A DNA stretch of 64,000 nucleotides from Afipia sp. Its GTDB lineage: Bacteria; Pseudomonadota; Alphaproteobacteria; Rhizobiales; Xanthobacteraceae. Below are positions 1,450 to 32,824 of this stretch, one piece after another. The notes below the pieces were generated by a model. It did no database searches, was not told where the DNA came from, and was given only the letters and a program-made list of their open reading frames with translations. The stretch covers positions 952,001-1,016,000 of the forward strand of contig JANQAK010000001.1 in NCBI GenBank assembly GCA_024707075.1, in the 5' to 3' direction. Each line of letters opens with the position of its first letter. Position 1 is the stretch's first letter. The position numbers were made by a program, and so were the translations under genes.

Positions 1450-2720
1450 ACCCATTCAAGAAGCCTTTGTCTGGATATGGCTCCCGGGATCAATCGGTCC
1501 GGTCGTTGCAGGGCGCCTTGCACGCTCCGGCCAACAACTCATCTTCAACTACGGCCGCAGCTATCTGGCACGTAAAGAAGCCATTTCGATTTATGAACCG
1601 GAGCTACCGCTCAAGGCCGGCGTTTTACCCCTTCTGACTGGGCTATCCATGCCGAGCAGCATTCGCGATGCCGCTCCCGATGCCTGGGGGCGGCGCGTTA
1701 TCATCAACAAAATGCTCGGGCGGAAGGGAAGAGATGTTGATCGAGCGGAGTTAGATGAGCTCACGTATTTACTCGAGTCCGGTTCAGACCGAATTGGAGC
1801 GCTGGATTTCCAGAGATCCGCAACAGATTATGTGGCGAGACAACCTCGGGCAGCGTCACTTGATGAACTTCAAAATGCGGCAGTGAATGTCGAGAAGGGC
1901 GTCCCGCTAACATCCGAGCTCGATCAAGCTCTTTTGCATGGCAGCTCGATCGGCGGCGCTCGTCCCAAAGCCATGATTGCGGATGGTGAGACGAAGTACA
2001 TCGCCAAGTTTTCGGCTCAGAACGATGTCTACAGTGTCGTGAAAGCCGAGTTTATCGCGATGCGTCTGGCTAGCCTTGTCGGGCTCAATGTCGCGCCCGT
2101 GAAACTCACGCATGCAGCCGGCAAAGACATCCTGCTCATCGGCCGTTTCGACCGGCAAAAGGCAGAGAGTGGTTGGCAGCGGAAGGCCATGGTTTCCGCA
2201 CTTACTTTACTTGGGCTCGACGAGATGATGGCACGCTATGCCAGCTACGAAGAGTTGGCCTCGATCATTCGTCACCGTTTTGACGCCCCCAGGAAAACTC
2301 TCAAAGAACTCTTCAGCCGCATCGTGTTCAATATCCTGTGCGGCAACAACGACGACCATGCTCGCAATCATGCTGCGTTCTGGGATGGCCACAATCTAAA
2401 GCTGACGCCCGCCTATGATATCTGCCCCCAGCCACGTGCCGGCAACGAGGCAACACAGGCGATGCTGATCCTAGGAGACAAACGCTCCAGCCAAATCGCT
2501 GTCTGCCTTGAGGCCGCCCCGGCATTTCTCGTTTCAAAGACAGATGCGACATCAATTATTTCAAACCAAATCAAGACCATCGTTCAACAATGGGATAGCG
2601 TCTGTGACGAAGCCAAACTCAGCGCAGTCGATCGAAGTTTTTTTTTGGCGCAGGCAGTTTCTAAATCCGTTTGCCTTCGAGGGTGCCCCGGCACAGCTAA
2701 TCAAGGCTGTGGATCAATAA
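1439..2720 (+). CDS. hipA: HipA-like Ser/Thr kinase toxin (3' frameshift)
   Basis: The product has the HipA layout: an N-terminal Couple_hipA segment to about residue 105, then a HipA_C kinase fold with the nucleotide-binding loop GSSIGGARPK, the lysine in KYIAKF, the catalytic segment NNDDHARNH and the metal-binding aspartate in AYDICP. Family members phosphorylate aminoacyl-tRNA synthetases such as GltX and cause dormancy. At a run of nine T (2638-2646) the frame changes: as written the gene reads on with unrelated residues to 2866, while removing one T gives a normal ending (FFWRRQFLNPFAFEG) with a stop at 2718-2720. All kinase motifs lie before the shift. This is either a sequencing error or a phase-variable tract. 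Confidence 0.85.
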
Positions 2721-2787
2721 CTCTTCGAAGAAGACCGCCCTCAGGCGCGTCGCGACGTTTCTGCTCGCTACGCCGCACCTGCATTTC

Positions 2788-3209
2788 TCATCTGAAACGT
2801 TTTTCCCAGTCGAAGAATGTTGCATCCTCCAACGAGGTAATTTCCGCTTTCACAGCAGCTTTCTGAGTCCAGCGTCTCGTCTTATCAACCTGCCGCGCTG
2901 GTACGAAGAACCACAGACCGCATTTCCATTGAGAATGTTCTTCCCTGATTACACGGTGTCTCTTAAGTTGCGACAGAATGCGCGGAACATACTCTCGCTC
3001 AAACTCCATAATCTTCGATTCTAGTTTTTCCCAGCCGATGCGGTGACCTCAACGACCCAGATCTCGTTGTTGGGAAAATTGATTGCAAGAAAATCCGGCT
3101 CTGCCTTCCAACCGTTTGGCTCTCCAATCAAATACTGTCCGTTCAAAAACATGCCTCTGTCTGCTTTCAAATAATTCTCTACCGCCTGCTCCCAGAATCC
3201 CTCAGCCAT
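2788..3209 (-). pseudogene. frameshifted PD-(D/E)XK-like small protein
   Basis: Two short frames belong together. The first (from 3209, after a GGAGG ribosome-binding site) encodes MAEGFWEQAVENYLKAD and then EPDFLAI, eight residues and VVEVTAS, which resembles the D...E-x-T core of PD-(D/E)XK-like nucleases. It stops in a run of five A (on the minus strand, 3025-3029). Adding one A joins it in frame to KLESKIMEFEREYVPRILSQ and the rest, giving a protein of about 140 residues. It converges on hipA. The nuclease assignment is tentative. The break may be real decay or a homopolymer error like others in this window. Confidence 0.5.
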
Positions 3210-3378
3210 TGCTACCTCCAAGTTCGCTATTTGACGTAAGCAATCACTGTTAATAATAATCCGATTGAATGCTGTACGTTTCAGGAATTTTGACTTGATG
3301 AGCGGCGCCGTTCAGCGGTGGCTGCAACACCCTCAGTGTAAATAACGCTCGCGTACAGATCAGTCCAAATCGAAAATG

Positions 3379-3765
3379 TCAGCGTGACTTAGCCTCCGGC
3401 GGGGGCAATATTCTCTCGCAATAATCTTCAGTTATTTTAGAGAAGTCCGGATCACAAAGAATTTGCGGGTCTTTGTTGGTGTCATCATCGACAATTCCTT
3501 CTCCGACCGCGTAGAAACTTATTATCGCGCCTCCATACTGTCTGGCAGGTACAAAAGTTTTGGTTCCGCAAAGAGCGATGCCGGGTGCCGTAGGCTCGCG
3601 GTATTGAGCTTTGCAATACCAAGTGCACCAATACGCGTTCTGGCTTGTATTCTTTAAATTAACCCGAAGGGATTTGTACCTTTGTGAGTAACATCCAATT
3701 TCAACTTCGCCAGCCGAAGCTTGAAAACACATCAGAGCGAATCCTATTGCTAACGGGCCGCGCAT
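3379..3765 (-). CDS. small secreted Cys-containing hypothetical protein
   Basis: The product of about 128 residues begins with a short basic segment and a hydrophobic stretch (MRGPLAIGFALMCFQASAGE) that looks like a Sec signal peptide with cleavage near ASA. The mature part holds several cysteines (GCYSQ, YWCTWYCKAQ, ALCGTK, ILCDPD, DYCERI), suggesting disulphides in the periplasm. I do not recognise a family. The start at 3765 was preferred over one three codons earlier because a GGGAGG ribosome-binding site sits at the right distance. It stands alone, with no evident operon partner. Confidence 0.55.
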   Translation of the reverse strand: MRGPLAIGFALMCFQASAGEVEIGCYSQRYKSLRVNLKNTSQNAYWCTWYCKAQYREPTAPGIALCGTKTFVPARQYGGAIISFYAVGEGIVDDDTNKDPQILCDPDFSKITEDYCERILPPPEAKSR

Positions 3766-4345
3766 TGTAGGCATCCTCCCAACTAAATTACGTCGCCAGG
3801 GAAATTGTAGGATTTAAATTTGTCCGGCTGGGCTCGGCGGTCAATGTATCGCCACTGTTTTTTGTCTTTGCCGCTGCAATTGGCGTGCTCGGATAACTTC
3901 GTCATTCAACGCCAGCATTCCGCGGGCCCGCCCGACCGGCACTTGCAATCTTACCTGCAGAGGGGAATTCATCTGGCAAGAACGCTACGCCGATCAACGC
4001 GCCAACAAGAATGGCACCGATTTGTCCCGACGCCAAGGTATCGCCAGCGCGATGACCGCAGGCTGCACGGCTAGAGTGGCGCGTTCGAGGCGGATAAGCG
4101 ATGTTATGGAATGTGCCGGTTCGAGTCCTTCAGTCGCCGCAACTTTCTCAGGCGCGCCTCAGGCAGCTCAAAACCGCTAGCTCGCGATTCTCGCGATCAT
4201 CGCAAACATTAAGAGCTTGTTTTTTCGCTGGCGGCAAACATTTCCTGCGTATAGGTCTCCATAGCATTTAGCCATGCCTCCTCGTGCTTAGGCAGAAATC
4301 TGAAAGTCGGGGCCCGCTGCCGTTCTTACGACAGAGTCCGATTCA
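3766..4345. other. gene-poor gap with tRNA-like repeat
   Basis: About 580 bases hold no convincing gene. Short open frames here have no family features or ribosome-binding site. The only structured element is the tRNA T-arm-like repeat at 4100-4128, listed separately. The stretch marks the left edge of the Septu-like operon and could be a scar of past integration. Confidence 0.4.
4100..4128 (+). repeat. direct repeat copy 1 with tRNA T-arm-like core
   Basis: The segment begins with GATGTTATGGAATG and runs into GGTTCGAGTCC, the shape of a tRNA T-arm. A near copy in the same orientation lies at 17923-17950. No full tRNA can be folded around it. It is a candidate attachment-site remnant. Confidence 0.5.
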
Positions 4346-5257
4346 CTACGGAGTAAGTCCGCGTGCGACACGCCAGCGGCTAAACTCCATTTCAAACTCA
4401 ATGATATAGGCAGCCGCCATCCCGGCGTAAGGTTGGTCGGGCTCAGCGAATTCTTTGAGGGTGGTGACTTCGGCCAAGATGTCGCTTAATTCATCGGCGT
4501 TCCCGTTCCAGCGGTTCAAACGATTCAGGATGTGGGTCCGTAGCGCCCTCATAGGTCGAAGCGCAGGGATGCGATCCAGCACGATTTCGGCGCGATTGAG
4601 TGCACAAGTTCGAATAGTATACGCTCCAAACGGGCTGAAGCCGGCAGCAGTTCTCCTTGGTTCAATAAGCGTAAGCTCTGCCGAAAAGTCCCATGACAAC
4701 TCATTGGCCGGATTCCGCTCGCACGGATTTATCAGCAAAGGATCTTCATCATCCAGATTGCAGTTGGCACCGAGTGCTCGGGTGCCTTGAATGTCGAACT
4801 GGTTTGCTTTTCCATGGCTATTAGAAGGACGCTTGCCAAGGAGAGCTTCGACCTCCGCACGGCTCATGCCCGGGGTAACGATGTGCTGTCTTAGGCTCTT
4901 GTTGCAATCTCGGCAGGTCGGCAGCAGATTATTCCAGCTATGGGCGAGCCACCAATATCCCGGATGTTGGGCTTCGCCTCTGATACCTCCTTTCGGTCGA
5001 TAATGCTCAACTTCCCGCGCGCCAACAGCCCCGATTTTGCTTTCGCAATAGGCGCAGTTTCCACCGGATAACTGACGCAATGCAGCCTTAACATCGGCCG
5101 AGCGGTACTTTTCGAACACATATGCAATGTGACTAGCTTGCCATGGCGTCCGTGCGGAATAGTAAGCTGCGGCATTGTTTATTTCAGTAACAACGGCTGC
5201 GCTCGGTCCACTTAAAGAGGGCGGCACAGCGACGCTCGCTCGATCAAGCTTCCGCAT
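4346..5257 (-). CDS. HNH endonuclease, PtuB-like
   Basis: The 303-aa protein carries a zinc-containing HNH nuclease module: CAYC at residues 68-71, the EHYRPK motif at 84-89 and NNLLPTCRDCNK at 109-120. This matches the nuclease partner (PtuB) of Septu-type systems and of retron-Ec78 effectors, which cut nucleic acids when released or triggered by the partner ATPase. Its ATG lies two bases after the stop of the upstream ATPase gene, so the two are one operon. The C-terminal half beyond residue 140 is unassigned and may bind the ATPase. No reverse transcriptase is present, so this is not a retron. HNH is certain; the Septu label is inference. Confidence 0.8.
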   Translation of the reverse strand: MRKLDRASVAVPPSLSGPSAAVVTEINNAAAYYSARTPWQASHIAYVFEKYRSADVKAALRQLSGGNCAYCESKIGAVGAREVEHYRPKGGIRGEAQHPGYWWLAHSWNNLLPTCRDCNKSLRQHIVTPGMSRAEVEALLGKRPSNSHGKANQFDIQGTRALGANCNLDDEDPLLINPCERNPANELSWDFSAELTLIEPRRTAAGFSPFGAYTIRTCALNRAEIVLDRIPALRPMRALRTHILNRLNRWNGNADELSDILAEVTTLKEFAEPDQPYAGMAAAYIIEFEMEFSRWRVARGLTP

Positions 5258-5259
5258 TG

Positions 5260-7467
5260 CTAGCCTGCTTCAGATTTTCGAAGAGCTTGTAAGACAGCTT
5301 CAACGGCCTCGGCCCGCGCGCCCGGCAATAAGCTATCTATAGGACGCTCGCGCTCGCGAAGGTATCTCAGCAATGCTTCATGGATAACTTGCGCCGTCGC
5401 GCTGTCGCCCACTGTTAGCCTAGAAACTAGTTCCTCCGCCTCGATGCCAATAGCGTGAGTTGGATCTGTTGCAACGCTTTGCGCTAGCTGCGCAATATCA
5501 AGCTGAACATCTGGGTCTACCGTGCTCGATAAGCCAAAATATTCCGACGTAAGCAACTGCTCGGCGCGCATTCCAGAAATGCTTGGGAGATCGCTTAAGA
5601 TGCTGACGCCCCCGCCAAGAACGCGCGTCAACACGACAACCTCTTCGTCCTCCATGCCACGAAGGCACAATGGATCATGTGTCGTTGCTATGAACTGAAT
5701 ATTTGGAAATGCTCGCCGAAGCGAAGAAATAACACGCATCTTCCATTGAGGATGCAAATGGGTCTCGATCTCATCTATTAATACTACCCCTTGAGCTGTT
5801 TCCATGTTGGACCAATGCTCAAGAAGTGATCGACAGATGTCAGCGACCATTGCGAACACCGATCGATAACCCTCGCTGAGCCGACCGACCGGTGTAAGTT
5901 GGCCCTGAGCCCAAACGCAAATACCCGCACGCTGGTCGTTGACTAGGTGATCGTCATCTCCGATGGGTAGGATCGTGCAGATCGTTCGAGCAACTTCGTC
6001 GAACATAAAACCGCGAAGGCTGATCAGCCAATCCGAAGGATCGGGCAAAGGCTGACTGGGATCAAAAAGGCTACGCACCCTTTGCGCCGCGCTCGTTCCG
6101 CGGCGTCCCCGTGACTTGGCGAAATAGCGGTGAGGTCCATAACCGAGAACAACGGCGGACTGCTCTTCCGTGCCCTCGATTCGATTTCGTACCGGGTCGT
6201 AAAAGAATTCTGCGGGCGACTTGCGATCATCAAAGTAAACGCGTGCTTGAATCGGTTGTTTTTCCCAAACGTCCCAAGAGTCTCTTGCCGCGCTGCGAGC
6301 AAGATCCCCGTACGGAATTCTCAACCGGCGAGACTCACGAGTGCCGAGGAGGGCCAGCGCGACCGCAGACAAGCATGTCGATTTTCCAACCGAATTCTCG
6401 CCTAACAGCAGCAGACAGGCTACCCCCGATTTCTCTGACCTCTTGATCGGGATAGGAATTACGATGTCATCAATCGCCCTAAAATTCGTGACGTGCAGCG
6501 ACGCCACCTGACTATTTGGTGAAACTGGCCGGGCTTGCTGTTGAGTGCTGGATTGCACAGCAACTAGCCTATCGAACTGCACAGAGGTTCGGCGATCCAG
6601 CTCCGCCCGTCTGGACCGGTCTGAGTTTCGAAGAAGCTCAATCACACCAGACAGCCGCTCCCGATCATCACTCTCGCTCTGTTGAAGCAACGATTGAAGC
6701 TCTCGAAGGAAAGCCCGGCCTGAATTGATCGAAGGATTCGCAATGCCGAATTCGTTCAGACTTCTCCTCAATATGTCGCGGCAGGCGCCACGAAAGGAAC
6801 CTGCTAAGAGAAAGTCTCCTGGCAATTCGTTGGGTCTCTCGATCGCATTCCTCCACACTCGAATCGCATCTTCAATTGCTCTTCGGCGTTCATCAATCAA
6901 CTCCGGCTCATTGAGGGCGAGGACCTCAACCGTGATGCTCCCCTTGGATGAGTTTTTCCTAGGAAAGCACTCACCCGACACAAGATAATTGAGATGGTTT
7001 TCGGGATTGTCGGATGTCGGATCTATGAGTAGGGGCTTCTCCTCGGCCTTAACCTCGTCGAACGTTGCGAGAAATTGAGCGCGACTATCCGTGACAGGAA
7101 AGTGGACTCCTTTAGCCTTCTGACAGCGGCGGCAAATCAAGAAGAGGTTGCGCCATTCAAATGCGAGCCACGAGTAATGGTCTGCGAACGCTTCACCGTC
7201 TTGTTCGTAAGGCAAGCTAAGTGGACGAAAATGCCCGATTCCATCAGATGTATCTATTGCCCTCTCGCAGTAAGCGCAGTGCCCATCAAAATCGTCAGAC
7301 ACCATCCTGACGACCTGACTGGAGTGAAACAGGTCATGATTAATAGGAGCGCGACGTTGACGTCGTTCAATTGAACTCCGGTGAGCCCATCGCAGCAATT
7401 GATCCCGTGAATCGTCGACCAAAGAATAAAATAGAGAAGGAGGCGTCGTTCTCTTGATTTTAAGCAT
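5260..7467 (-). CDS. HNH-domain plus SMC-like ATPase fusion (PtuA-like)
   Basis: Numbered from the ATG at 7467, the 735-aa protein starts with its own HNH-like zinc module (CAYC at 64-67, HFRP at 79-82, W105/N107 and CRRC at 112-115) and ends in an ABC/SMC-type ATPase: Walker A GENSVGKST at 356-364, signature LSEGYRS at 530-536, Walker B VVLIDEIETH at 561-570, and a switch histidine in ATTHDP. Septu PtuA ATPases normally lack the first domain, so this is a fusion or an HNH-bearing variant. The ATG at 7467 (MLKIKRTTPP) was chosen because the 50 residues upstream look non-coding. It is followed after two bases by the HNH gene. Role in phage defence is inferred. Confidence 0.8.
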   Translation of the reverse strand: MLKIKRTTPPSLFYSLVDDSRDQLLRWAHRSSIERRQRRAPINHDLFHSSQVVRMVSDDFDGHCAYCERAIDTSDGIGHFRPLSLPYEQDGEAFADHYSWLAFEWRNLFLICRRCQKAKGVHFPVTDSRAQFLATFDEVKAEEKPLLIDPTSDNPENHLNYLVSGECFPRKNSSKGSITVEVLALNEPELIDERRRAIEDAIRVWRNAIERPNELPGDFLLAGSFRGACRDILRRSLNEFGIANPSINSGRAFLRELQSLLQQSESDDRERLSGVIELLRNSDRSRRAELDRRTSVQFDRLVAVQSSTQQQARPVSPNSQVASLHVTNFRAIDDIVIPIPIKRSEKSGVACLLLLGENSVGKSTCLSAVALALLGTRESRRLRIPYGDLARSAARDSWDVWEKQPIQARVYFDDRKSPAEFFYDPVRNRIEGTEEQSAVVLGYGPHRYFAKSRGRRGTSAAQRVRSLFDPSQPLPDPSDWLISLRGFMFDEVARTICTILPIGDDDHLVNDQRAGICVWAQGQLTPVGRLSEGYRSVFAMVADICRSLLEHWSNMETAQGVVLIDEIETHLHPQWKMRVISSLRRAFPNIQFIATTHDPLCLRGMEDEEVVVLTRVLGGGVSILSDLPSISGMRAEQLLTSEYFGLSSTVDPDVQLDIAQLAQSVATDPTHAIGIEAEELVSRLTVGDSATAQVIHEALLRYLRERERPIDSLLPGARAEAVEAVLQALRKSEAG

Positions 7468-8482
7468 CTGGAAGGACCCGCTCAACCGGCACAGTGCTGT
7501 CCGGCTTGCCTGTAATGCGATGCGCGAAAGCAGCTTTCGCAGGCCAAAAGCACAATCATTTATGCAATTTTGGTGACATGATCTTCGCTCATATCTGCTT
7601 CTGGTCAATAGCGCCATCAGGCAAAAACACCTGGCCTGTGCGAGTACCCGCGACTGGGTATGGTTCAGGATCCTGATTATCGCTCAGGAGCAAACAGCGT
7701 CACTTGGAAAACTAGCCAAACATCTCTCAAAAGCCAGATCGTGGCCATCCTAGGCTATCTCGTCAGACCGGCCATCCCCCTCCGCAACCGGCTGATATCT
7801 TTCTGTTCGCAAAAGCTGGTCTCAGGGCTCGTGAGATCGCGCTATCAACGCGGAATAGGTCACCGACGCCCAAGGGAAGATCGGCAGGCCATTGTCTTGC
7901 AGAAGAGAGCAAGGGTCAGTCCGGCAGGATCATCCCAATGAACCGGGAGCTTCATCAGGCATTCATCGAGTGCCGACGAGGTATTCAGATCACTCCTGAT
8001 GCTCGCGTGATTCATCCGCGCCGGTGATTCAGCGACGCCACTAGCTCGTTGCGTCGGTCATCGCCGCCCGATGCCGTCTCCACGGAAATGCGAGAATATC
8101 CAACCGAATTCAGAGCACCTATTTGGGAGTCAGGCGCCTAATCTAAAGTCGGGACGCGGGCGCAACCGGGTTGGTGATCTGCGAACAAGTGCTTATCGAT
8201 TACGTCCGTACAAACTTTGCTCCCAACAAGCACCACCATAACCAGGCCCAATAGTGGGACGTTAGCTGCTGAACGCCAAGCTATTGAATATGCCCCTCCG
8301 GACCGGGTGACGAGATGTAAAGTTGTGCGACGCCAAGGATCGGTCGCATGATGTTCAAATCGGCGGCCCAAAATAATAGCCATATTGCCAATTTCTGATG
8401 GTATTATTGCCAAATTTTTTGCCAAAATGGGTCGTGATTACCTGAGACCTCACAGCTAGCGTGTTCACGTAAACCAAGGAGC
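7468..8482. other. intergenic region between divergent operons
   Basis: Roughly one kilobase separates the start of the HNH-ATPase gene from the next plus-strand operon. Open frames here are short, lack ribosome-binding sites and show no family features. Both flanking operons must be promoted from this stretch, but I see no clear -35/-10 pair. It may hold decayed sequence from an earlier insertion. Confidence 0.35.
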
Positions 8483-8797
8483 ATGAACATGCAGCCACCA
8501 ATTATCACGACCCATGCCCGCCAACGGCTCCAGCAGCGGGGGAGCAGATTTCGGGAGCTCGTTATTGTGATTGCTCACGGCGATATCGAGATTCCGGCCA
8601 GAAACGGGTGCAGATACATCCAGCTGTCCAACCGCGAGGCCTCACGCCTTTGCCGCGACGAACAATTGAATGTCTCTGATGTGGATCGTGCGCAGAGAAT
8701 CATCGCGCTGCTGGATCAGGAAGGTCGTGTCGTGACTATTTTGAAGGGAAACCGGACTAGGCGCGCCTCCGCCATTCGACCGGGTGGTCGGCGATGA
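8483..8797 (+). CDS. small DUF4258-like protein
   Basis: The 104-aa product starts after an AAGGAG ribosome-binding site. The pattern THARQRLQQRG near the N-terminus, a central IEIPARNGCRYIQL strand and the ending GRVVTILKG resemble DUF4258 proteins, which share the RelE/BrnT fold of ribonuclease toxins. Its stop overlaps the start of the next gene by four bases (ATGA), so the two are coupled. No antitoxin-like gene is adjacent, which argues against a simple toxin role. Family assignment is tentative. Confidence 0.5.
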   Translation: MNMQPPIITTHARQRLQQRGSRFRELVIVIAHGDIEIPARNGCRYIQLSNREASRLCRDEQLNVSDVDRAQRIIALLDQEGRVVTILKGNRTRRASAIRPGGRR

Positions 8798-10353
8798 ATA
8801 AGCGCAACGTGATCCCATTCACCAAAAATCGAGGCTTCCACAAGCCATCAAGAACTGATGGCTCGCCAGAAGACCCAAATGAATTGCTGAGAGTGCTCCG
8901 CAACAAAAAGAGGCTGTCAAAGACCGATCAGGCTGCCCTTGTCGATAATCTCGGACAACTGGTCGTCGAATTTGACGCAGATAACGCTAAAACGGTCGCT
9001 CAAAATCTCCTTGAGAGGAATGAGCGCGATAAGCGTAAGCGGTATATCAGACTGCCAGATGATCGCGTAAGCGAGCGAGCACGACATGCCGCATCGGGTG
9101 GAAGCTTCGCACGCATTATCGAACAGTTGATAAAGCTGCACTCACGCAAGAATGTAGATCAAGAAACGGCCAAGATTGCCGTTGTTCGTCAGGCGCTTCG
9201 AAATACATCATTTCGCCCTTCGCCGCCTTTTCACATGCCCGCGGGAAGCGACAAGGCGGATGTTATCCAGCTCGCTACAGACATGCAGGCGATGTCGGAC
9301 AGATTATCCGACGAAACAAACTTCGCCGAGTTCTTAGCGTTGCTCGCGAAACATCCCATTTTTCCGAACGAGGCTTGGTATCAATGGACGAATCAGCTCG
9401 AGCTAAAAGCTAATCTCCAGGCGAATTCTTTGTACGAATGGGGCTCGGAGCTGGACGACTATGAACTGAATGAATGGATACCTTGGTGGGCGCCGCGATG
9501 CCTGATCGGGCACTTATACGTTCCATTTTCATGCCGTGCGGTGCATGTGGCTCGAAAACTGATTCCGGAAATTCTCACTCAGCAGAAGATGACGGACGTA
9601 TATCCAAGTCTCGATTACTATTCGCTAATTGAGCCCTTTATTGACGAGCAGCAACTAAAGACTTCGCAGCTTTTTCATCGTCTTCCCGTGTGGCTTGTTG
9701 TGCTAACTCTGCCTAATAAATTAGTTCCATGCCTATACGCCGCAACCCACCATCCAGGCGGCTTCTACCCTGGTCAGCAGTATCCGTGCACCAACAGCTC
9801 GCTGCACCCATTCTTTGTGTCGACCATCGGCGCTGATATCAGCAATGATGCAATCCTGCTTCCAGACGTGGATAATGACGATCTCAACACCTGCTACGTG
9901 GGAGTAACAGCCTCTGAGGTTATCGCGACAGGCTCACGGATCGATGAGAAGGTCAGAAACTTTAACTGTGAATGTCAGTTTGCCTCGATGCCAAGCGATC
10001 TCCCCGAATGGCTTGAGGAGCGACCGGTTCAGCGTTTCCTTAAGCTGACCGAGGATGATCGTGGGTCCATGTCATACGCGCTAGCTCCTCGACTGATCAC
10101 CAATAGGACGGGAAAAACGGAAGACGGAACGATATTTCGGCCAACCTTTCCCGATGCGGGTTCACCGTATACCGGCCTACGTCATAACTCGATCGCAGCC
10201 TACCTTCTCAGAAACTTAATAAGCAATGATACCCCATCGATTTACAGCTCACTGAGGGATGACATTGTTGCGAAACGCAATGCCGCGCAATTGCTGCTGC
10301 GGGAAAGCACCAAAGAATATCGTGAAAAGTTCAAACAGCGCTATGAGACGTAA
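8794..10353 (+). CDS. hypothetical protein, 519 aa
   Basis: I do not recognise this protein. It begins MNKRNVIPFTKNRGF, is rich in charged residues for the first 130 positions, and then has an aromatic-rich middle (DDYELNEWIPWWAPR, then LYVPFSCRAVHVARKL) with few obvious catalytic motifs. Late in the sequence it contains FRPTFPDAGSPYTGLRHNSI and ends in a basic helical tail. There is no signal peptide, membrane segment or P-loop. It overlaps the upstream DUF4258-like gene by four bases and precedes the next gene by about 130 bases. Length and composition say it is a real, soluble protein. Confidence 0.6.
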   Translation: MNKRNVIPFTKNRGFHKPSRTDGSPEDPNELLRVLRNKKRLSKTDQAALVDNLGQLVVEFDADNAKTVAQNLLERNERDKRKRYIRLPDDRVSERARHAASGGSFARIIEQLIKLHSRKNVDQETAKIAVVRQALRNTSFRPSPPFHMPAGSDKADVIQLATDMQAMSDRLSDETNFAEFLALLAKHPIFPNEAWYQWTNQLELKANLQANSLYEWGSELDDYELNEWIPWWAPRCLIGHLYVPFSCRAVHVARKLIPEILTQQKMTDVYPSLDYYSLIEPFIDEQQLKTSQLFHRLPVWLVVLTLPNKLVPCLYAATHHPGGFYPGQQYPCTNSSLHPFFVSTIGADISNDAILLPDVDNDDLNTCYVGVTASEVIATGSRIDEKVRNFNCECQFASMPSDLPEWLEERPVQRFLKLTEDDRGSMSYALAPRLITNRTGKTEDGTIFRPTFPDAGSPYTGLRHNSIAAYLLRNLISNDTPSIYSSLRDDIVAKRNAAQLLLRESTKEYREKFKQRYET

Positions 10354-10482: not shown

Positions 10483-12267
10483 GTGTTTCATCTGGACAAG
10501 ACCTCCGAAGGAATCAATCTCCTAAACTGGAATAAAGAGCTTCCGTTCGCGAGCGCTGCCGACCCATTGGGTCTAAACCTACGTGTGTCCGCAAGGATTT
10601 CTGACGAACTTCTTTACTGCATCACGTCGATCACGCCTCGCGCCCGTTACTACGCATTCTTTCCGTGGGCCTTCCAGGACTACAACGCTCACGAGCAAGG
10701 CACGAAGAATGACCGCGGACGTGTCAAAGCCGTTCTGACGAGGGAACGAGCTATGGTTCTTGGTGCCGTGCTTCATCACGATGGCAACCCATGTGACGGC
10801 GGGGGACTCGGTGGATCAGATAAAGCGACAAAGATCGACCGAAACAAACGCCGCATGTTTGACTTAGCCATCTGGGAACATCTCGGCGCTCCAGAAGGTC
10901 AGTTCGGTGCTGCCTATAAAGGATCGCTCATTAATCTCGGCGTTTTCAAAACAGACGAAGTGCACCTCAAGGAGGAGAAGCGTGGCGATACGTCGGAACA
11001 CAATGAGGAAACCGAGACAATCGATGTTCGAGAATTAAGCGAGTTGGGCAAGCGATTAGCATCGTCTTTCGCCCGATCCGTACGGGCCACGGAATATGTT
11101 AAAGCGAGTTGCAACTTACGCGACGCAGTTGATACCTCGATCCTCTCCGAATTCGGATCGCGAGCAGGCTTATGTGAGATAAACGGCAAGCACGCCTTCG
11201 ACCGAGAGGTATTACGCGACGTTTTCTTTGCTAAGCACAAAGAAAAGTACAAAGAGATGGCAACGCCCGGTCAGCACAGACGTCGCATGTCTCTACTTTT
11301 GCTTCTTGAATGCGTCGGGCAAACAAACGCCGCGGGGATCTCGTTCGATAACAGTAGTTTTAGCGACATTTGCTATTTCGGAACATTCTTTTCGGATGGC
11401 GAAACGCCGAGGATCGCAGCCATCACAGTACCTTCGGAGCTCGCAGATATTTATGAGAGATGGAGGGTCTTCTACTCCCAGAATTATTTGGCGGTGGCGT
11501 TGCAATCGATGCTCGCAGCTTGTGTTCGACTGTTGCGAGACAAGCCAGCAGGCTTGTCCCAAAATCAACTGATGCAAGCACTGAACCCGCCTGGCCTCAA
11601 AGCGCGATTTGAGGAACTATTTGATAGAAAAATTCCCGCTGACTTTTTCACAATGTCAGCCCGCGAAACGCTTTCAACCTGCGGCATAACCATAAATCAC
11701 AACACAACCAGCGCACTACCTATCGATGCACCGTTCTCGGAACGCAGTCTTGAAGAGTCGCTTGTCGGTGGCGAGGCAAACGAAGCGTCAGGAATTGTCC
11801 TTGCTGCGATACTTCTATATCAGACCGTACTTCGTTATCAGACGCGCACTCTGGCGGCTTACAAGAATTGGTATGCCCAACAGGTTTTCAATCCGTCTGC
11901 TGACATAGCGCTTCCGGAGATCGCAAAATATCTCATCGAGGAGTTTGGGAATGATTGGCTCGATTGCAGCAACGAGCGACTCCTTCACCGAGTTGTTTGG
12001 CGTTTTGTAATCCAACAACATCAAACAATGAGCTACGAGCGAGGTTTTGGCGGTAGTGCTCCGCTGTTCCATGTTGATGGAACGACTATCATCGGTACAA
12101 ATTCAGATTTTACCGATCCAAGGGCGCTTAATCCCCGCCTTGGTAGCGCGTTGCAAATCCTTACTGATATCGGACTCATCATTTACGATGACGAAAGTGG
12201 TTATAGGCGGATGCCCGACGGCGACGATTGGCTCGCTTCGGAGCTCAAGCACGAGAATGCGCCATGA
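10483..12267 (+). CDS. unrecognised 594-aa protein coupled to PLD nuclease
   Basis: The gene starts GTG (10483), about ten bases after a GGGG-containing stretch. The N-terminus contains ADPLGLNLRVSARISDELLY, then ITSITPRARYYAFFPWAF; the layout recalls DUF6361 proteins, in which a short N-terminal motif is followed by TRARY-x-x-x-PW, but this is a weak by-eye likeness. The remainder is helical with no P-loop or nuclease signature that I can see. Its TGA overlaps the ATG of the phospholipase-D-like gene by four bases, so the two products are made together and probably interact. It may recognise a target for that nuclease. This is inference only. Confidence 0.6.
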   Translation: MFHLDKTSEGINLLNWNKELPFASAADPLGLNLRVSARISDELLYCITSITPRARYYAFFPWAFQDYNAHEQGTKNDRGRVKAVLTRERAMVLGAVLHHDGNPCDGGGLGGSDKATKIDRNKRRMFDLAIWEHLGAPEGQFGAAYKGSLINLGVFKTDEVHLKEEKRGDTSEHNEETETIDVRELSELGKRLASSFARSVRATEYVKASCNLRDAVDTSILSEFGSRAGLCEINGKHAFDREVLRDVFFAKHKEKYKEMATPGQHRRRMSLLLLLECVGQTNAAGISFDNSSFSDICYFGTFFSDGETPRIAAITVPSELADIYERWRVFYSQNYLAVALQSMLAACVRLLRDKPAGLSQNQLMQALNPPGLKARFEELFDRKIPADFFTMSARETLSTCGITINHNTTSALPIDAPFSERSLEESLVGGEANEASGIVLAAILLYQTVLRYQTRTLAAYKNWYAQQVFNPSADIALPEIAKYLIEEFGNDWLDCSNERLLHRVVWRFVIQQHQTMSYERGFGGSAPLFHVDGTTIIGTNSDFTDPRALNPRLGSALQILTDIGLIIYDDESGYRRMPDGDDWLASELKHENAP

Positions 12268-14425
12268 AACCCTTGGATTTGCTTGAGCACTTTGACAAAG
12301 GTGCTGGAGCTTTTGGATTTATAGCTACCTACGAATTCGAACCTCAATTTTTTGAACGCCGTATGCTTGCCAAGCGTACATTTGGTAATGCCGAGCGTCT
12401 TGTTGTCTTCATGGACCGCGGTCGTTACCAAGAGCTGCTGAATCGCGGCTTACAGGTGTCTGGATTCAACCGGCGCTATTTGGTTGTTCCGATGGATCGC
12501 GCTCCAGCGGTATTCCACCCTAAGCTATACTTGGCAGTGGGCGAGAAGAGAACTGATGGTATGATCGGTAGCAACAACTGCACGAATGCCGGTATTGCTT
12601 ACAACACCGAGCTTAGTTCTACGTTTTCGCTCATTGCTGATACAAAGATGCAGAATGATACTGAATCCCGATCTGTTCTGCGTCAAATCTATGAAGCAAT
12701 GAAAGAATTCGCAGCCGAAGCTGGCAAGCTGAGGGACATTATCGAAGACCAGTTTTTTGGTCCCGCCGAAGCACGCTTTCCATGGTTGCACTCCAAGGTG
12801 GTTATTCCAAAAGGGTCGATAGACCTGATCCACTCACATGCGAAACCTTTGTGGGGCGAACTTATAAAGCGCTTGGAAGAACAAACCGTTCGAAAGATTA
12901 CTGTCCTATCCCCATTCTATGACAAAGAGCTTGGGTTTTTAACTCAGCTGCATAAACAGTGGCCCTCCGCTGTTTTAACGGTCATCGCGCAACCGGAGTA
13001 CGCAACCCTTGCTGGCAAAAGGCTCGGAAAGTTGTTCGGTAACGGCAAGCATCGATTATTTGCCGCTAACCTAAAGCCAGGACGACGCTTGCACGCCAAA
13101 GCCTTTGCATTCGAGACTAATGCGGGGACATTTTGGTTGAGCGGGAGCCCTAACGCGACACGCGCGGCATTCGATGGGCGCAATACCGAGGCTGCGTTCT
13201 GGGTCCAGACCAGAGGACGGCCCGACGATTTATTCAAGAGCAGCGGGCTTGGCCTGGAGAGAATTAGTCCAGCGGATTTTAAATCAGGAGCGGACCAAGA
13301 GCCAAAAAACGAAAGCAAGCCGAAAAGTGAACTGATTCTGGGTTCAGCGGTATTGGTCGAAAGCGGAATGTTACTGTGCGAGATTGAGGCGCCAAAATCA
13401 GCTCGAGACCTCGCTCTCAGAATACGAAATGTCAACGAGCTCCTTCCAGTATTGTCCGTGCCTATACGGCGGAGCGCCGAAAGCAACTTTTCCGTCGAGC
13501 TCGATGAAAATCAGATTGCACAGATCCGGAGCACCGCTATCTGCGAAATCAAATGTATTGCGAGTAGTGGCTCAGAGCTTGTCAGCAATCCCGTAGCGCT
13601 TGTACAGCTCTATCAACTGCTAAGGGAAAGGCAGGCTCACCATGGCGGCCGCGATCTTCGGCGCACGATCGAAGAAACAGGAGAAAATCTCGTTTCTTAT
13701 GTAGACAGCCTTTCAAGCGTCCGCGACGCCGTTGATTTTTTCAGTAACTGCAGCATTCGCTTCTTCGATGGAGAGTCTGCCTCTCGCAGCATGGGCTTTG
13801 ACATTTGGAAACCGCGTGACCCATTCAAACCAGATACGCCGCCCAACTGGCTGAACTTGCCAAAAGGTGGAACACCGGAAGAGTTGCGAGAAGCCATTAG
13901 AGAGTTTGTTGAGCGACACCAAACGCAGAAGCTTTATAAGCATGTACGGCGCGGAAATTTGAATGGGCTGCCGAACTTCCTGGATATCTTTCGGACGCTC
14001 AACAGTCTCCTGCTTGCGTATCACGCTCGGTCGATGGGGGAGTTGGCTTCGTCATTCCCTTTGGTTATGTCTCAAATTTCTTTATGCATAATCTAGAATT
14101 GCTCATTGGACCGTTCGATCATCGCGAAGATCAGTACGATGGCAACGGATTCATCTCAGCAATCCGGGCTAATTTTCGGGGTGATAAAGCGATTGTTCGG
14201 GATAGGTTGCGCGAGGAGCGTGTGCCTCAGATGATGCTAGCAGCCGTCGAAGCGATGATCGACGTACGTGCAAGAGCTTTAAAAAAGGCAGGACCTGACG
14301 CTTGGGCAGCCAACAGGATTCGATGGGTTTCGCAATGGATAGAGGAACAGGGTCTGGGTCAGCCTACGGAAGCGGACATTCACACGGCTCGGCTAGAATA
14401 TACGCCAGAGCAGCAAGCCGCCTAG
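12264..14425 (+). CDS. phospholipase-D-like nuclease (3' frameshift)
   Basis: The protein has two HKD-type half-sites: H85-x-K87 with GSNN at 102-105, and H277-x-K279 with GSPN at 294-297. Paired sites form the active centre of PLD-superfamily nucleases. As written the frame ends at 14096 (610 aa). Near a run of five G (14036-14040) the downstream frame becomes protein-like well before its own ATG (reading GVGFVIPFGYVSNFF, then MHNLELLIGPFD) and runs to 14425; one extra G would fuse the two into about 720 residues. I therefore treat 14084-14425 as the C-terminus of this gene, though a separate overlapping 113-aa gene is possible. The ATG at 12264 overlaps the previous stop. Confidence 0.7.
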
Positions 14426-15263: not shown

Positions 15264-16748
15264 CTAGCTGTCTATTGCGCGAATTCCATCCAGCAATACG
15301 CGAGTCGCTCGACAATCATCCTCGTTGTAATCGAGAATGCGCTGCCGAACTTGCCGATCGCCGCTTCTGCACCATCGATCGAACCACTCGATCGACGCTG
15401 CGCCAGATGGATGGACGTCTCGCCAGCCAAACCCAAGATATTTGGCCAAGGTCTTGATTGAATGATCGCGCGTTGGCCATTCCGTTGCTCGGAACACTAC
15501 ATCAAAGTACAGATCGATGGACTTAAGAGGATTGAATAGCTCTTCGATCTCGGCCTCAGAGCAAACGTCCGGAAATTTGCGCTGGAGCTTTCTGTAGATC
15601 GTGCGCTCGTATTTTGAATAGTAGTAGATGGCCACGCCTGCCCTGCTGGTGAGGTAGGTATACGCATCTGCAAACGCCTGACGTTCTGCCTCCGGCGTCA
15701 CTTTTTCAGCGAAGAAATAAACGAACTTCTCCGCCGAGTTATCTCCATGGTTTCGCTCAACGATGCCATGGAGATAGCAAAAGTCCCTCAACGGATCGAC
15801 TTCAATGTCGAAGAATAGCTCTGTCTCGGCGCTTGGTAACATCACCGCACTGCGCAGAAACGGTGTCGGCGCTGGGTCTTTCAGGAGTACCGCCCTAGAA
15901 TGAAAAACCCTCATCCGGTCAGCACCAAGACCTTTAAAAGCCGTTTTTGACTTTGTGATGTAAGCCTCAGGATTGCATGCGGCAAAAGCAGCGATTGTCG
16001 GAATCGTATCCTGCATCGTATCGCGCAGATTCCGGCCGAGAAACGGGATCAAAGTCAGATCGTCGGCTATCGTCAGCTCATTTATGCAGTGCGTGTACCA
16101 ATGGCAAAGTTTGCAACCACTCGCGTAGGCACCCTTCGGGACGATCTGCTTCGATAGGATACCTCGAGCTAGAGCCAGGGCAGATTGATAATCATCCCAG
16201 AGAGTTCCAGGCTTCTTCGGGCCCTGCGGCTTCGTAAAATCGTAGGTAACTTCATCGCCAGATACATCCCAGATGAATCCCCGACGACCGGCGGAAAATC
16301 CGATTTGCTCGAGAAGATCGACATAAATAGCCAATTGAACCGCGTAGTGCAGCTTGGGCTTGCCATCGCTATCATCGTCACCACCGCCCTCCTCACCGCG
16401 CCCTGACTTGATATCCCCCGGAACGTATCCACCCAATTCCTTGCGCAAAATGTCCGGTACGCCAACCAAATCGCCTGCGCGGATGCTCCCTCCGTAAATC
16501 AATGGCTCGTCGCGCTTCATGGCATCAAGGGTCTGGCGTTCCTTTTCCTCGCCTTCAAGGGCGGAAAGATCGAGGTAAGGAGTCTTGAGATTTCCGATTG
16601 TTTCTTTCTCGAAGACAGAGCCCCTCTCCCAGAGAAGCTTGACGAAGGCATTGGACGGATCCCGGGTTGCCTTGTCGCCAAAAGCATCGAGGGCGACGCG
16701 TTGGGGGCAATTCACGAGGTCATAAAGAACAGATGCCGTAACAGTCAT
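15264..16748 (-). CDS. TM0106-type RecB-like nuclease with RNase H-fold exonuclease domain
   Basis: The N-terminal half is a RecB-like PD-(D/E)XK nuclease: GVPD with D99, GDIKSG with D112 and K114, and the VQLAIY motif around Q138. A cysteine cluster (GCKLCHWYTHC) may hold an iron-sulphur cluster as in Cas4/AddB relatives. The C-terminal half is a DEDD exonuclease of the RNase_H_2 family, with FFDIEVD, the YYSKYE motif and DYNEDDCRAT. This two-domain layout is that of TM0106-family nucleases. The start at 16748 (MTVTAS) was preferred over one five codons upstream. It is the middle gene of a three-gene operon; some relatives sit beside helicases, but none is here. Confidence 0.8.
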   Translation of the reverse strand: MTVTASVLYDLVNCPQRVALDAFGDKATRDPSNAFVKLLWERGSVFEKETIGNLKTPYLDLSALEGEEKERQTLDAMKRDEPLIYGGSIRAGDLVGVPDILRKELGGYVPGDIKSGRGEEGGGDDDSDGKPKLHYAVQLAIYVDLLEQIGFSAGRRGFIWDVSGDEVTYDFTKPQGPKKPGTLWDDYQSALALARGILSKQIVPKGAYASGCKLCHWYTHCINELTIADDLTLIPFLGRNLRDTMQDTIPTIAAFAACNPEAYITKSKTAFKGLGADRMRVFHSRAVLLKDPAPTPFLRSAVMLPSAETELFFDIEVDPLRDFCYLHGIVERNHGDNSAEKFVYFFAEKVTPEAERQAFADAYTYLTSRAGVAIYYYSKYERTIYRKLQRKFPDVCSEAEIEELFNPLKSIDLYFDVVFRATEWPTRDHSIKTLAKYLGFGWRDVHPSGAASIEWFDRWCRSGDRQVRQRILDYNEDDCRATRVLLDGIRAIDS

Positions 16749-16803
16749 GCGAAAACAGTCCAATAAGTATGCGCCGCGAAGACTGATATCTCCCGCGAAA
16801 GAG

Positions 16804-17922: not shown

Positions 17923-17950
17923 GATGTTATGGAATGGCGGGTTCGAATCC
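17923..17950 (+). repeat. direct repeat copy 2 with tRNA T-arm-like core
   Basis: Same layout as the copy at 4100: GATGTTATGGAATG followed by GCGGGTTCGAATCC. The T-arm part also matches the T-arm of the tRNA-Ser gene at 32735-32824, though T-arms are conserved in many tRNAs. No complete tRNA can be formed from the flanking bases. Confidence 0.5.
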
Positions 17951-24796: not shown

Positions 24797-26138
24797 ATGC
24801 AAAAGAGAATCACAGACAATCAGGTTCTTGGGGAACTTGGAGAGACGGCGGTCAAGAAAATTGTTCTTGAAAGCGGATTTCTCTATGACCCGCGCGGAAG
24901 GCTGGAAGCCGGAACCGACGGCCTCATTGAGCTACGCGACCGTAAAAGCGGCGCACCCTTGGGGAAGTTACTCGGCGTGCAGGTTAAGAGCACAGCAGCC
25001 GGTAAATATACTAACGAAACGGACGCAAGCTTCGAATATCTGGTCAAGCCCGACGACCTGACTTACTGGCGCCAGTATAACATTCCGGTCATCATCGTTT
25101 TATGGCGTCAGTCAGACGGAACGGCTTATTGGCAAGATGTGACGAGCGGCCTGCGTGGCGATGAACGACGCTTGAAGTTCGACAAAACGGCAGATGTGTT
25201 TGATCCACGCTGTGTCGATCGTTTGGCAGCACTCACAATAGATAGGCGAACTCCGGGCGTTCATATTCCGCCACTGAATTTCGGCGAAACTGCCATAATC
25301 AACATGATGCGTCTTAAGCTGCCTGACGAGATCTTTATCGCGACATCGCCTTTTGGATCCATCAAGGATGCGGTGCCTAACCTGCTCAAACAAGGAGACA
25401 CGCGTTTCGATTGGGTCATTCGCAAGCGGCGTTATGTTTCCTTTTTTGATCCGCGGGAGTTTGGAACTCGCGCCCTTGTCGATCTGGATCAGGTTGAAGC
25501 CATTGATGCAAAGCTTTTTACTTTGAACGATGATCTTGACGACCTGAACAGCACCATTGAGCTTGTCCGCCGCACGGTCGCGCGACAAGTGCGCAATCAG
25601 CTTAGCTACCTCAAGGATGATCGACTATTTCACTTTCACGCGATCAGTCAGAACAAATCACGCAATTTCAAGTACGCATCAAGCGTCAAGGACACATCGG
25701 CCCGCGTTGTCAGCTACTATCCAAACAAAAAATTTCCAGACAAGCCGGGTTATGTTCGTCACCACGCGTCAAGTCTGCGGTTTGAACGGCTTGGCGATGA
25801 ATGGTTCGTCGTAATTGATCCTACATTCTATTTCACTCGCAATGGCTTCACTCCGCATCCGTTTCCCGGAGCGCTGCTAGCCGGCAAAAAACGGTTAGAG
25901 CGCAACGCCGCCGTCCGGGGACAGGTCATTATGTGGCAGAGCTTACTCGTGCAGAGTTGCAAGCCAAAAGGCGATTTGTTCGAAAAAGACGGAAGCTGGC
26001 GACGTTCTGATTGGCTTTGAGCCTCTACCACTAATCGAACTGGAGAAAGCCGTTCCAGAGGACACATGGGAGCGCACCGATCCCCGCGCCGGAGACATGA
26101 AGCCAGCCGACTTATTTGACGAGGGGTTTCCGGCATGA
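24797..26138 (+). CDS. DUF4365-APAZ nuclease partner of short Argonaute (SPARDA type, frameshifted)
   Basis: The N-terminal 130 residues are a DUF4365 (DREN) PD-(D/E)XK nuclease: GTDGLIELRD with D41 and LGVQVKST with Q62-x-K64. The rest is an APAZ domain, the part that pairs with a short Argonaute. In described SPARDA systems the complex uses a small guide, senses invading nucleic acid and then degrades DNA and RNA without specificity. As written the frame ends at 26020; near a run of five A (25983-25987) one base is in excess, and removing it continues as GDVLIGFEPLPLIELEKAV to a stop at 26136-26138, which overlaps the Argonaute ATG. That overlap supports the longer reading. Confidence 0.82.
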
Positions 26139-27608
26139 GTTTCAAAGCCCGCGTCTTCGACGAACCCATTCTGGAATTCGGCGACGGAGGCCATCACATT
26201 GATCCCCGGCAAGGATTGCGTGAGTTCGGCCCGCTCCAGCCTCGATCGGGCGATGTGGTGAATGTCGGCGTTATTGGTACCGACGATACCGTGTCTGGAT
26301 TTACTGATTTTCTTGGCGAGACGGGACGCGGCATCGAGAGCGAAAACAAAGCGCTTATCAACCTCAATCCGGATTTTCCCGGTCTGGGTAACCAAAATCC
26401 GTTCCGATGCAAATTCGAGGTGCCAGACGGCGCTACACTCAAAATGTCGCGTAGTCAGGTGAACGAAATTCGCGCCATCGGCAGGCATGACGAAGCGGTA
26501 CGGCAGGCGGTCGCTATGGTTGCCGAACAACTTACAGCCTTAGTAGAGAGCAGCGTGAAGCCCGACGTAATTGTGCTTGCGTTGCCGATCCCGCTGATCG
26601 AAAAACTCGTTAATGCAAAAAGTGAAGCCGCCGAAACTATGGAAGGAGAAGAAAAAGGAAGAAGAAGAGGAGGATGAGAAAGACGTGCTTCTCGATTTCC
26701 GCGATTTGCTGAAAGCCGCAACACTTCACTTAGACGTCCCCACGCAGATTGTGTGGCCCGATACATGGGATGACACGGCAAAGATTCCTCGCAAGGTGAA
26801 ACGCGAGAGTAATCGCCAAGTTCAGACCAAGGCTACACGCGCTTGGAATTTGCTAAACGCATTGTTCTATAAAGCGGGGAAGGTGCCGTGGCGACTTTTG
26901 CCTGACGCGGCGGGTTTGCGGACGAGTTATCTCGGCATTGGCTTCTATCGAGACATAGACGGGCAGCAACTATGGACCAGCACGGCGCAGATGTTCGACG
27001 AGCGCGGGCGCGGACTTATACTGCGCGGTGCTCGGGCCCAGACCGAGTCAAAAGGCCGGCACCCGTATCTCACGGCGCAGGATGCCAATGATTTGGTGAC
27101 CCAGTCCATTGCCACCTATAAAACGCATCATCGCCATGTGCCTGCGCGTCTTGTGGTCCTAAAAACTTCAAGGTTTAGACCCGAGGAAGCTGAAGGTATT
27201 GATGCGGCGCTCCGCGCAGCGGGCATAGATTTAAGCGATTTGGTTTGGGTACAGGAAAGCTCTCCCGTCGCGATTTTCCGAGACGGAAACTATCCGGTCT
27301 TACGTGGTACGTTCGTTGATTTGCGAGGAAAGGGATTGCTCTACACGCGCGGTAGCGTGCCATATTACGGGACGTTTCCAGGTCTTCGGGTGCCACGTCC
27401 TCTGATGCTCGTGCCGCATGAAAACTGCGATACAGCGATTGTTAAACTCGCTCAAGAGGTCTTGGCTCTAACGAAAGTCAACTGGAACACGACCCAGTTT
27501 GACCTGAAGCTGCCCGCGCCAATCATGGCAGCCAGAGAAGTCGGGCGCATATTGAAACACATCGAATTCGGAATGCCGGTGTCGCCGGATTTTCGAAAGT
27601 ATACCTGA
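26135..27608 (+). CDS. short prokaryotic Argonaute, MID-PIWI (frameshifted)
   Basis: The N-terminus (EPILEFGDGGHHIDPRQGLR) is the usual opening of short pAgos, and the end (LTKVNWNTTQFDLKLPAP, then REVGRILKHI) is the last part of a PIWI domain. I see no DEDX catalytic set, as expected for short pAgos, which bind guides and targets but leave cutting to the partner. The frame is broken: the first part runs 26135-26677 and the second is open 26613-27608. A purine-rich tract with five A (26652-26656) lies in between, and one base less would join them into about 490 residues. An acidic linker (KEEEEEDEKD) follows the break. The ATG overlaps the partner's corrected stop. Confidence 0.8.
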
Positions 27609-32734: not shown

Positions 32735-32824
32735 TGGCGGAGAGAGCGGGATTCGAACCCGCGATACGGTTTCCCGTATACACACTTTCCAGGCGTGCGC
32801 CTTCAACCACTCGGCCACCTCTCC
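32735..32824 (-). tRNA. tRNA-Ser (anticodon GGA)
   Basis: Read on the minus strand the gene begins GGAGAGGTGGCCGAGTGG and ends with CCA encoded. The acceptor stem pairs over seven bases with one G-U, the anticodon loop reads CTGGAAA (anticodon GGA), a long variable arm TATACGGGAAACCGTATC forms a stem as in class II tRNAs, and the T-arm is GCGGGTTCGAATCCCGC. It lies at the boundary between the accessory region and core genes, and its 3' end faces the island, a common integration geometry. Confidence 0.95.

Follow-up and report, generated by a model that had tools for sequence, protein, structure and literature searches.

A putative two-gene, helicase-free relative of the Azaca defence system in an Afipia genome

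The 64,000-nucleotide stretch of Afipia sp. DNA analysed here (contig JANQAK010000001.1, positions 952,001 to 1,016,000; "the window" below means this whole stretch, numbered from its first letter) contains two adjacent genes on the forward strand that we call zacA-like and zacB-like, after the components of the Azaca defence system with which they are compared (Table 1). The zacA-like gene is an open reading frame (ORF) for a protein of 594 amino acids (aa), and the zacB-like gene encodes a protein of the phospholipase D (PLD) superfamily, 610 aa long in the frame that holds its catalytic region. The end of the first ORF and the start of the second, at 12264, have the four bases ATGA in common, which bears out the overlap of stop and start described in a first-pass annotation of this DNA. 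Judged from sequence comparison, the pair appears to represent a divergent two-gene, helicase-free lineage that is related to Azaca without being a member of it, as measured by DUF6361, by the helicase ZacC and by its separate clade.

In this assembly the zacB-like gene of the window is split, the break lying close to the C-terminal end. The 610-aa frame aligns at 38% identity with residues 3-585 of a 708-aa homologue that is intact on a plasmid of Novosphingobium humi (L024:11995-14121; the intact pair of this species has the accession NZ_CP117418.1), and the product of a 113-aa ORF in a different frame aligns with residues 604-707 of the same homologue at 36% identity (E 4e-18); since the two match successive parts of one protein, the PLD gene is read as split. 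We rejected the alternative that 14084-14425 is a separate third gene, because its product matches the PLD C-terminus. The span of 10483..14425 that had been annotated for the pair does contain it, but the PLD frame stops at 14096 and the rest is the displaced C-terminus. The zacA-like protein has a full-length homologue, 39.7% identical, on the Novosphingobium plasmid, and chance ORFs were likewise rejected as an explanation, given the co-conservation of the genes, the full-length sphingomonad homologue of about 40% identity and purifying selection in relatives. A scan for promoters and terminators gave counts near those of shuffled sequences. We give about even odds to a locus that is in decay here or to a split that is an error of assembly; the copy may be inactive, and on its own would tell little about function, which is compatible with the explanation we prefer for the family. 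Beside the displaced C-terminus itself, the short prokaryotic Argonaute (pAgo) gene of the same island is split between frames, which suggests that the island is decaying or that the assembly has small errors there; on the other side, no stop interrupts the 594-aa frame or the catalytic part of the 610-aa one, and all six H/K/N active-site residues are kept.

No Pfam or NCBIfam model matched the 594-aa protein up to E 0.1, and the first-pass annotation had held that it belongs to no family. That view is refuted by the PADLOC models, of which ZacA matches aa 25-118 (E 2.4e-5) and ZacB matches the PLD partner (E 6.5e-21), so that the hidden Markov model search which the annotation had proposed for the 594-aa protein succeeded in PADLOC at the N-terminus and failed in Pfam and NCBIfam. 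The 610-aa protein also matches PLDc_2 in Pfam (E 7e-8) and nothing in NCBIfam up to E 0.1. The faint DUF6361-like opening mentioned in the annotation was a good lead, DUF6361 (PF19888) being the Pfam family that matches the Azaca ZacA of locus L062 over its full length (E 5e-97). Profile-profile comparison of the long ZacA-like proteins with Azaca ZacAs gave a match confined to the N-terminal 87 columns (E 6.6e-6, probability 85), that of the pair PLD proteins with Azaca ZacB covered both half-sites (E 1.3e-16, probability 98.8), and the long-ZacA profile (A6) recovered Azaca ZacAs in two genomes (E 9e-9 and 7e-6). The first ~90 residues of the 594-aa protein are thus remotely homologous to ZacA, and the PLD protein is a homologue of ZacB. 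The arrangement had been supposed new; its ZacA N-terminus and PLD partner are instead remote homologues of catalogued Azaca proteins, and the likeness of the 594-aa protein to a defence family already paired with PLD proteins is partial, through the N-terminal homology alone. With Azaca and its PLD protein already catalogued as a defence system, a wholly new arrangement is not supported.

Azaca, with the gene order ZacA-ZacB-ZacC, was reportedly described by Millman et al. in 2022. Like the pair, it has a ZacA-type gene followed by a PLD ZacB-type gene (PADLOC PDLC03828, PDLC03829 and PDLC03830), and the context of the pair is likewise one of defence. Our yardsticks were four Azaca loci (L060-L063, lengths taken by longest ORF), in which ZacA of 388-439 aa is followed by ZacB of 617-711 aa and a helicase of 1044-1129 aa. 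Unlike these, the pairs have ZacA-like proteins of 504-635 aa and intact ZacB-like proteins of 681-886 aa (in the tree set), and DUF6361 was not matched in the four long ZacAs scanned, those of the window (up to E 0.1) and of L015, L025 and L028 (up to E 0.01). When eight long ZacAs were compared with PADLOC, half of them gave nothing for ZacA at E 0.01 and the remaining four matched at 6e-3 to 1e-7; searches of PDB sequence profiles each brought up a single weak match of no use. Listings of the literature accessible to us, which leaves most subscription papers outside its coverage, showed no study of Azaca mechanism, no two-gene form and no paper for the term DUF6361. Published sources name ZacC as a helicase (PMC12278908), list a PLD-like domain for Azaca and Mokosh alike (PMC10952713) and, in a 2026 review, list the mechanism of Azaca as unknown (PMC12926258).

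The PLD catalytic region, aa 1 to about 340 of the 610-aa protein, holds two half-sites, H85-x-K87...N105 and H277-x-K279...N297, whose six H/K/N residues are invariant in 33/33 pairs and in 4/4 Azaca ZacBs. The position of the aspartate is occupied in half-site 1 by V/L/A/T/I/F/S, with D in 0/33 pairs, and in half-site 2 mostly by Q or E, with D in 1/33; the four Azaca ZacBs have D at neither. Of the two complete HKD half-sites that had been annotated, the half-sites themselves stand and the conserved Asp does not, and the signature is HxK...N, not canonical HKD. We take this signature to be of TDP1 type. The structure prediction for the 594-aa protein that the annotation had called for gave a mostly helical model with a winged-helix-like C-terminus (predicted local distance difference test score 69.7, predicted template modelling score 0.77). 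Foldseek found no match for it at E <= 0.001 in PDB or BFVD, and VIA-align found only middling winged-helix matches; the model thus yields no fold assignment and no case for a new fold.

We consider it probable that the pair is a divergent relation of Azaca, with two genes and no helicase, in which the ZacB-like protein would be the effector nuclease and the ZacA-like protein its recognition partner. The effector would most likely be a metal-independent nuclease, its two HxK...N half-sites forming one active site, while the ZacA-like protein, with its helical body and winged-helix-like C-terminus, would most likely recognise invading nucleic acid and hold or direct the nuclease, and translational coupling would keep the two proteins in step. 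We infer the nuclease rather than lipase activity, the DNA target, the sensor role of the ZacA-like protein and the protection against phage, and regard a sensor plus an effector as a reasonable hypothesis.

In 32/32 non-redundant loci the two genes lie side by side on one strand, overlapping by 4 bases in 27 and by 8-14 bases in five. Most of these loci were found through ZacA, and a survey of plasmids by the PLD protein alone is the better test: 18 records matched, 16 were opened, and a ZacA-like partner adjoins in 16/16. The co-occurrence count that the first-pass annotation had proposed therefore favours a conserved couple. In the plasmid survey the order is A-B in 15/16, the exception being Rhizobium locus L086, where the order is B-A with a small ORF between. 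Carriers belong to the Pseudomonadota, Bacteroidota, Actinomycetota and Halobacteria (haloarchaea). Across 33 pairs, the distances among the ZacA proteins track those among the ZacB proteins (Mantel r 0.97, with 0/2000 permutations as high), a correlation that includes any shared descent of the hosts. In five comparisons between close relatives the ratio of nonsynonymous to synonymous substitution rates lies at 0.085-0.179 for both genes, which shows purifying selection on both there. The two genes form a unit that is conserved and inherited together, and for which a helicase is not obligatory.

The tight translational coupling and strict co-occurrence, together with the AbiEii-type genes that adjoin some pairs, would also fit an abortive infection or toxin-antitoxin system, in which a self-toxic ZacB-like nuclease is restrained by its partner and freed on infection, an explanation that we think unlikely, the ZacA-like partner being large and not antitoxin-like.

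The loci come from several searches. Each of the whole-genome searches counted the window's own genome: the 594-aa protein gave 5/296 genomes of the family, the PLD protein 6/385 of the class (two being weak PLD matches), the ZacA family model 7/398 of the phylum (four being Azaca) and the long-ZacA profile 6/299 genomes (two being Azaca). Further sources were genome contigs (19 loci), viral contigs and plasmids (18 records by the PLD protein, 1 record by the 594-aa protein). No match was found for the 594-aa protein in the genome-contig collection, for the PLD protein in viral contigs or phage records, or for the Myroides ZacA in viral contigs. The subfamily of the window looks rare: besides the window only Novosphingobium was seen, and a two-row subfamily profile matched 1/297 genomes of the order, namely the window's own. 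Excluded from the counts were fragments and contig ends (L049, L050, L052, L070), weak PLD matches without a partner (L011/L021, L012/L022) and duplicates or near-duplicates (L032-L034, L041, L046, L047, L051, L069, L071), L032 being an intact pair from Rhodopseudomonas pseudopalustris. ORFs were called by length without overlap, a procedure that can miss genes; the ZacA-like gene of L083 was missed in this way and then verified. Two loci from the long-ZacA profile search stand outside the 32: L099, an ordinary pair whose genes overlap by 4 bases and beside which no helicase was found, and L100 (7393-10789), in which a 573-aa ORF precedes a 560-aa zacA-like gene (B-A order). The 573-aa ORF has no PDB match and matches only the second half of a ZacB-like protein (E 4e-8 to L086). 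The reversed-order loci L086:5941-10001 and L100:7393-10789 are perhaps a further subfamily.

In the window the pair has neither a helicase gene nor a restriction gene beside it, as the first-pass annotation had stated and as the scanned neighbours agree; downstream, on the other strand, lie an OGG-like gene and the gene of a TM0106 RecB-like nuclease. A ZacC elsewhere in the genome was considered and rejected, since the whole genome gave no match at E <= 0.001, against 2e-266 or better beside zacB in the four Azaca genomes. Matches to the ZacC model in 3/8 other pair genomes are short and weak (best 1e-14), and the model also matches 6/14 control genomes, as expected for helicase motifs. No protein of 41 pair loci exceeds 47 bits against the four Azaca ZacCs, which among the matches listed score 232-2551 bits with one another. 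A helicase-like gene stands beside the pair on the same strand in 8/32 loci, and these genes are of assorted non-ZacC families (Table 1). Helicase-type Pfam matches were tied to single genes by further scans, and L064:12626-15211 by motifs only. Where contigs end the view is cut short: L037 shows nothing on its downstream side, and L065, L067, L068 and L072 show little on the upstream side. A Prevotella plasmid has a DEAD/DEAH helicase gene three genes upstream of zacA. In L043 we also observed three coupled genes in a row, the motor being of another kind, and a UvrD-helicase-like gene after the pair (10766-12631).

In a ZacB tree of 37 rows, of which only four are Azaca and several, L014 included, are long branches, the 33 pairs are split from the Azaca rows with support 100/99. 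Helicase adjacency changes 9 times on this tree, 8 of them among pairs, which equals the number of loci that have it. These results bear on whether the pair is simply Azaca that has lost its helicase, a truncated three-gene operon and no separate lineage. The homology of the ZacA N-terminus and of ZacB to those of Azaca is what such a loss would leave, and an Azaca-like ancestor with later loss is made plausible by L014, whose helicase gene overlaps zacB, whose ZacA scores higher against the PADLOC ZacA model (29.6 bits) than any other long ZacA scanned, and whose helicase is weakly similar to one ZacC (46.8 bits). L014 may be a link to such an ancestor, but its place on a long branch is unsure. 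The pairs form one clade apart from Azaca, their ZacAs differ from those of Azaca in length and DUF6361 as described above, and pairs lacking a helicase are spread over Pseudomonadota, Actinomycetota and haloarchaea, so that any helicase loss would be old, not recent, and we judge this explanation improbable.

That the ZacB-like protein acts on lipids, as a phospholipase or transphosphatidylase harming membranes rather than DNA, we hold to be very improbable: its PLD-fold structure matches do include phospholipase D and phosphatidylserine synthase at similar Z, but the half-sites lack the conserved Asp, the pairs are located among nucleic-acid-acting systems, and weak hints come from the PLD domain of NgoFVII endonuclease (E 0.023 on the window protein, under its cut-off) and from DISARM DrmC (E 2.5e-8 for the L015 relative).

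DISARM also has a PLD protein, DrmC, besides its helicases DrmD and DrmA, and a DrmD-like helicase follows the pair in L013, but the DrmC matches of ZacB-like proteins are short and weak (E 0.019 for the window). Unlike DISARM, the window's pair has no DrmA/DrmB/methylase unit beside it, the neighbours scanned being PtuA/PtuB, HipA, the OGG-like and TM0106 proteins and unmatched proteins, and its PLD protein is much longer than the matched DrmC models and is partnered with a ZacA-like protein. Mokosh, a helicase plus PLD system, has a PLD-like domain in common with the pair's PLD protein; no Mokosh (Mko) model matched the 594-aa or 610-aa protein up to E 0.1, and no helicase is beside the pair. 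TDP1, PLD3/PLD4 and other PLD-fold enzymes are 8-14% identical in sequence to the ZacB-like protein, which has extra beta-rich and helical C-terminal parts.

Table 1. Features of the window and helicase-like genes adjoining pairs at other loci
Feature	Locus	Position	Strand	Remarks
Septu ptuB	window	4346-5257	-	PADLOC 2.5e-77; one open frame
Septu ptuA	window	5260-7617	-	PADLOC 2.7e-219; one open frame
DUF4258-like ORF	window	8483-8797	+	104 aa
519-aa ORF	window	8794-10353	+	no convincing family match
zacA-like gene	window	10483..12267	+	594-aa ORF, GTG start; proposed DNA-sensing/targeting subunit
zacB-like gene, 5' part	window	12264..14096	+	610-aa ORF; PLD-superfamily catalytic region, beta-rich region, helical region; frame ends early
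displaced zacB-like C-terminal part	window	14084..14425	+	113-aa ORF, different frame
TM0106-family RecB-like nuclease	window	15264-16763	-	499 aa; TIGR03491
APAZ/nuclease-type pAgo partner	window	24797-26020		
short pAgo gene, split	window	26135-26677 and 26613-27608	+	two frames; profile positions 1-167 and 150-454
type IIG-like protein	window	28152-32270		matches DrmMI models; about 14 kb from pair
tRNA-Ser	window	32735-32824		
DrmD-like	L013			follows pair
another SNF2 type	L014			overlaps zacB by 11 bases
HsdR	L025 (1-14263, Myroides plasmid)			pair between hsdS and hsdR inside type I restriction operon
PD-(D/E)XK domain with sub-threshold UvrD_C match	L036			
TM0106/Upf1-like nuclease-helicase	L039			upstream
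TM0106/Upf1-like nuclease-helicase	L043	within 2174-7209		upstream; overlaps zacA by 4 bases
UvrD types	L045, L065			

The guanine plus cytosine fraction around the window's pair is lower (0.51-0.58 in 4-kb blocks up to 32 kb) than beyond (0.60-0.63), and the lower stretch also carries Septu ptuA/ptuB, a short pAgo with an APAZ/nuclease-type partner, a type IIG-like protein and a recombinase. An Rfam scan of the window gave tRNA only, and a search for a copy of the tRNA-Ser end as an attachment site gave one 15-base match at 17937, which is not convincing. Upstream of the pair, the DUF4258-like and 519-aa ORFs overlap by four bases and end about 130 bases before it, possibly another undescribed two-gene unit. 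Relatives of the TM0106 protein near L014, L039 and L043 are 1132-1149 aa long, with a Upf1-like helicase half that is missing from the window's 499-aa protein.

Elsewhere, too, the pairs keep company with defence genes, as the annotation had suggested checking: 113 proteins within two genes of relatives' pairs matched 212 PADLOC models at 1e-15, GajB, DrmD and SoFic among the 25 models listed, and 113 control proteins matched 8, a comparison that is qualitative, as one helicase can match many models and the control (ten arbitrary 18-kb stretches from contigs of seven of the same genomes, with 113/154 ORFs hand-picked) was not matched for mobile DNA. Pairs are carried by plasmids, by a Tn7-like element (L019, by reading flanking ORFs) and by viral-collection contigs. 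In the viral contigs L067 and L068 the pair lies at one end with tail-like genes near (by reading), perhaps as cargo of a prophage or gene-transfer-agent-like element, and in two Streptomyces plasmids (L083, L088) a gene for a large CHAT-domain protein is close to the pair.

For the family as a whole we put forward, tentatively and as somewhat less probable than not, that the pair is a separate and ancient two-gene defence system of bacteria and haloarchaea, consisting of a large helical targeting protein and an HxK...N PLD nuclease, that would need no helicase or nucleoside triphosphatase of its own. Such a system would have travelled on plasmids, Tn7-like elements and prophages, and some lineages would have coupled it to differing motors (HsdR, DrmD-like, TM0106/Upf1-like) as an exchangeable nuclease module. 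This family would for the most part escape scans that depend on DUF6361, on the PADLOC ZacA profile or on ZacC. As a helicase-free minimal lineage, it lets one ask which steps, recognition or cleavage, the ZacA/ZacB core does alone and what the helicase adds.

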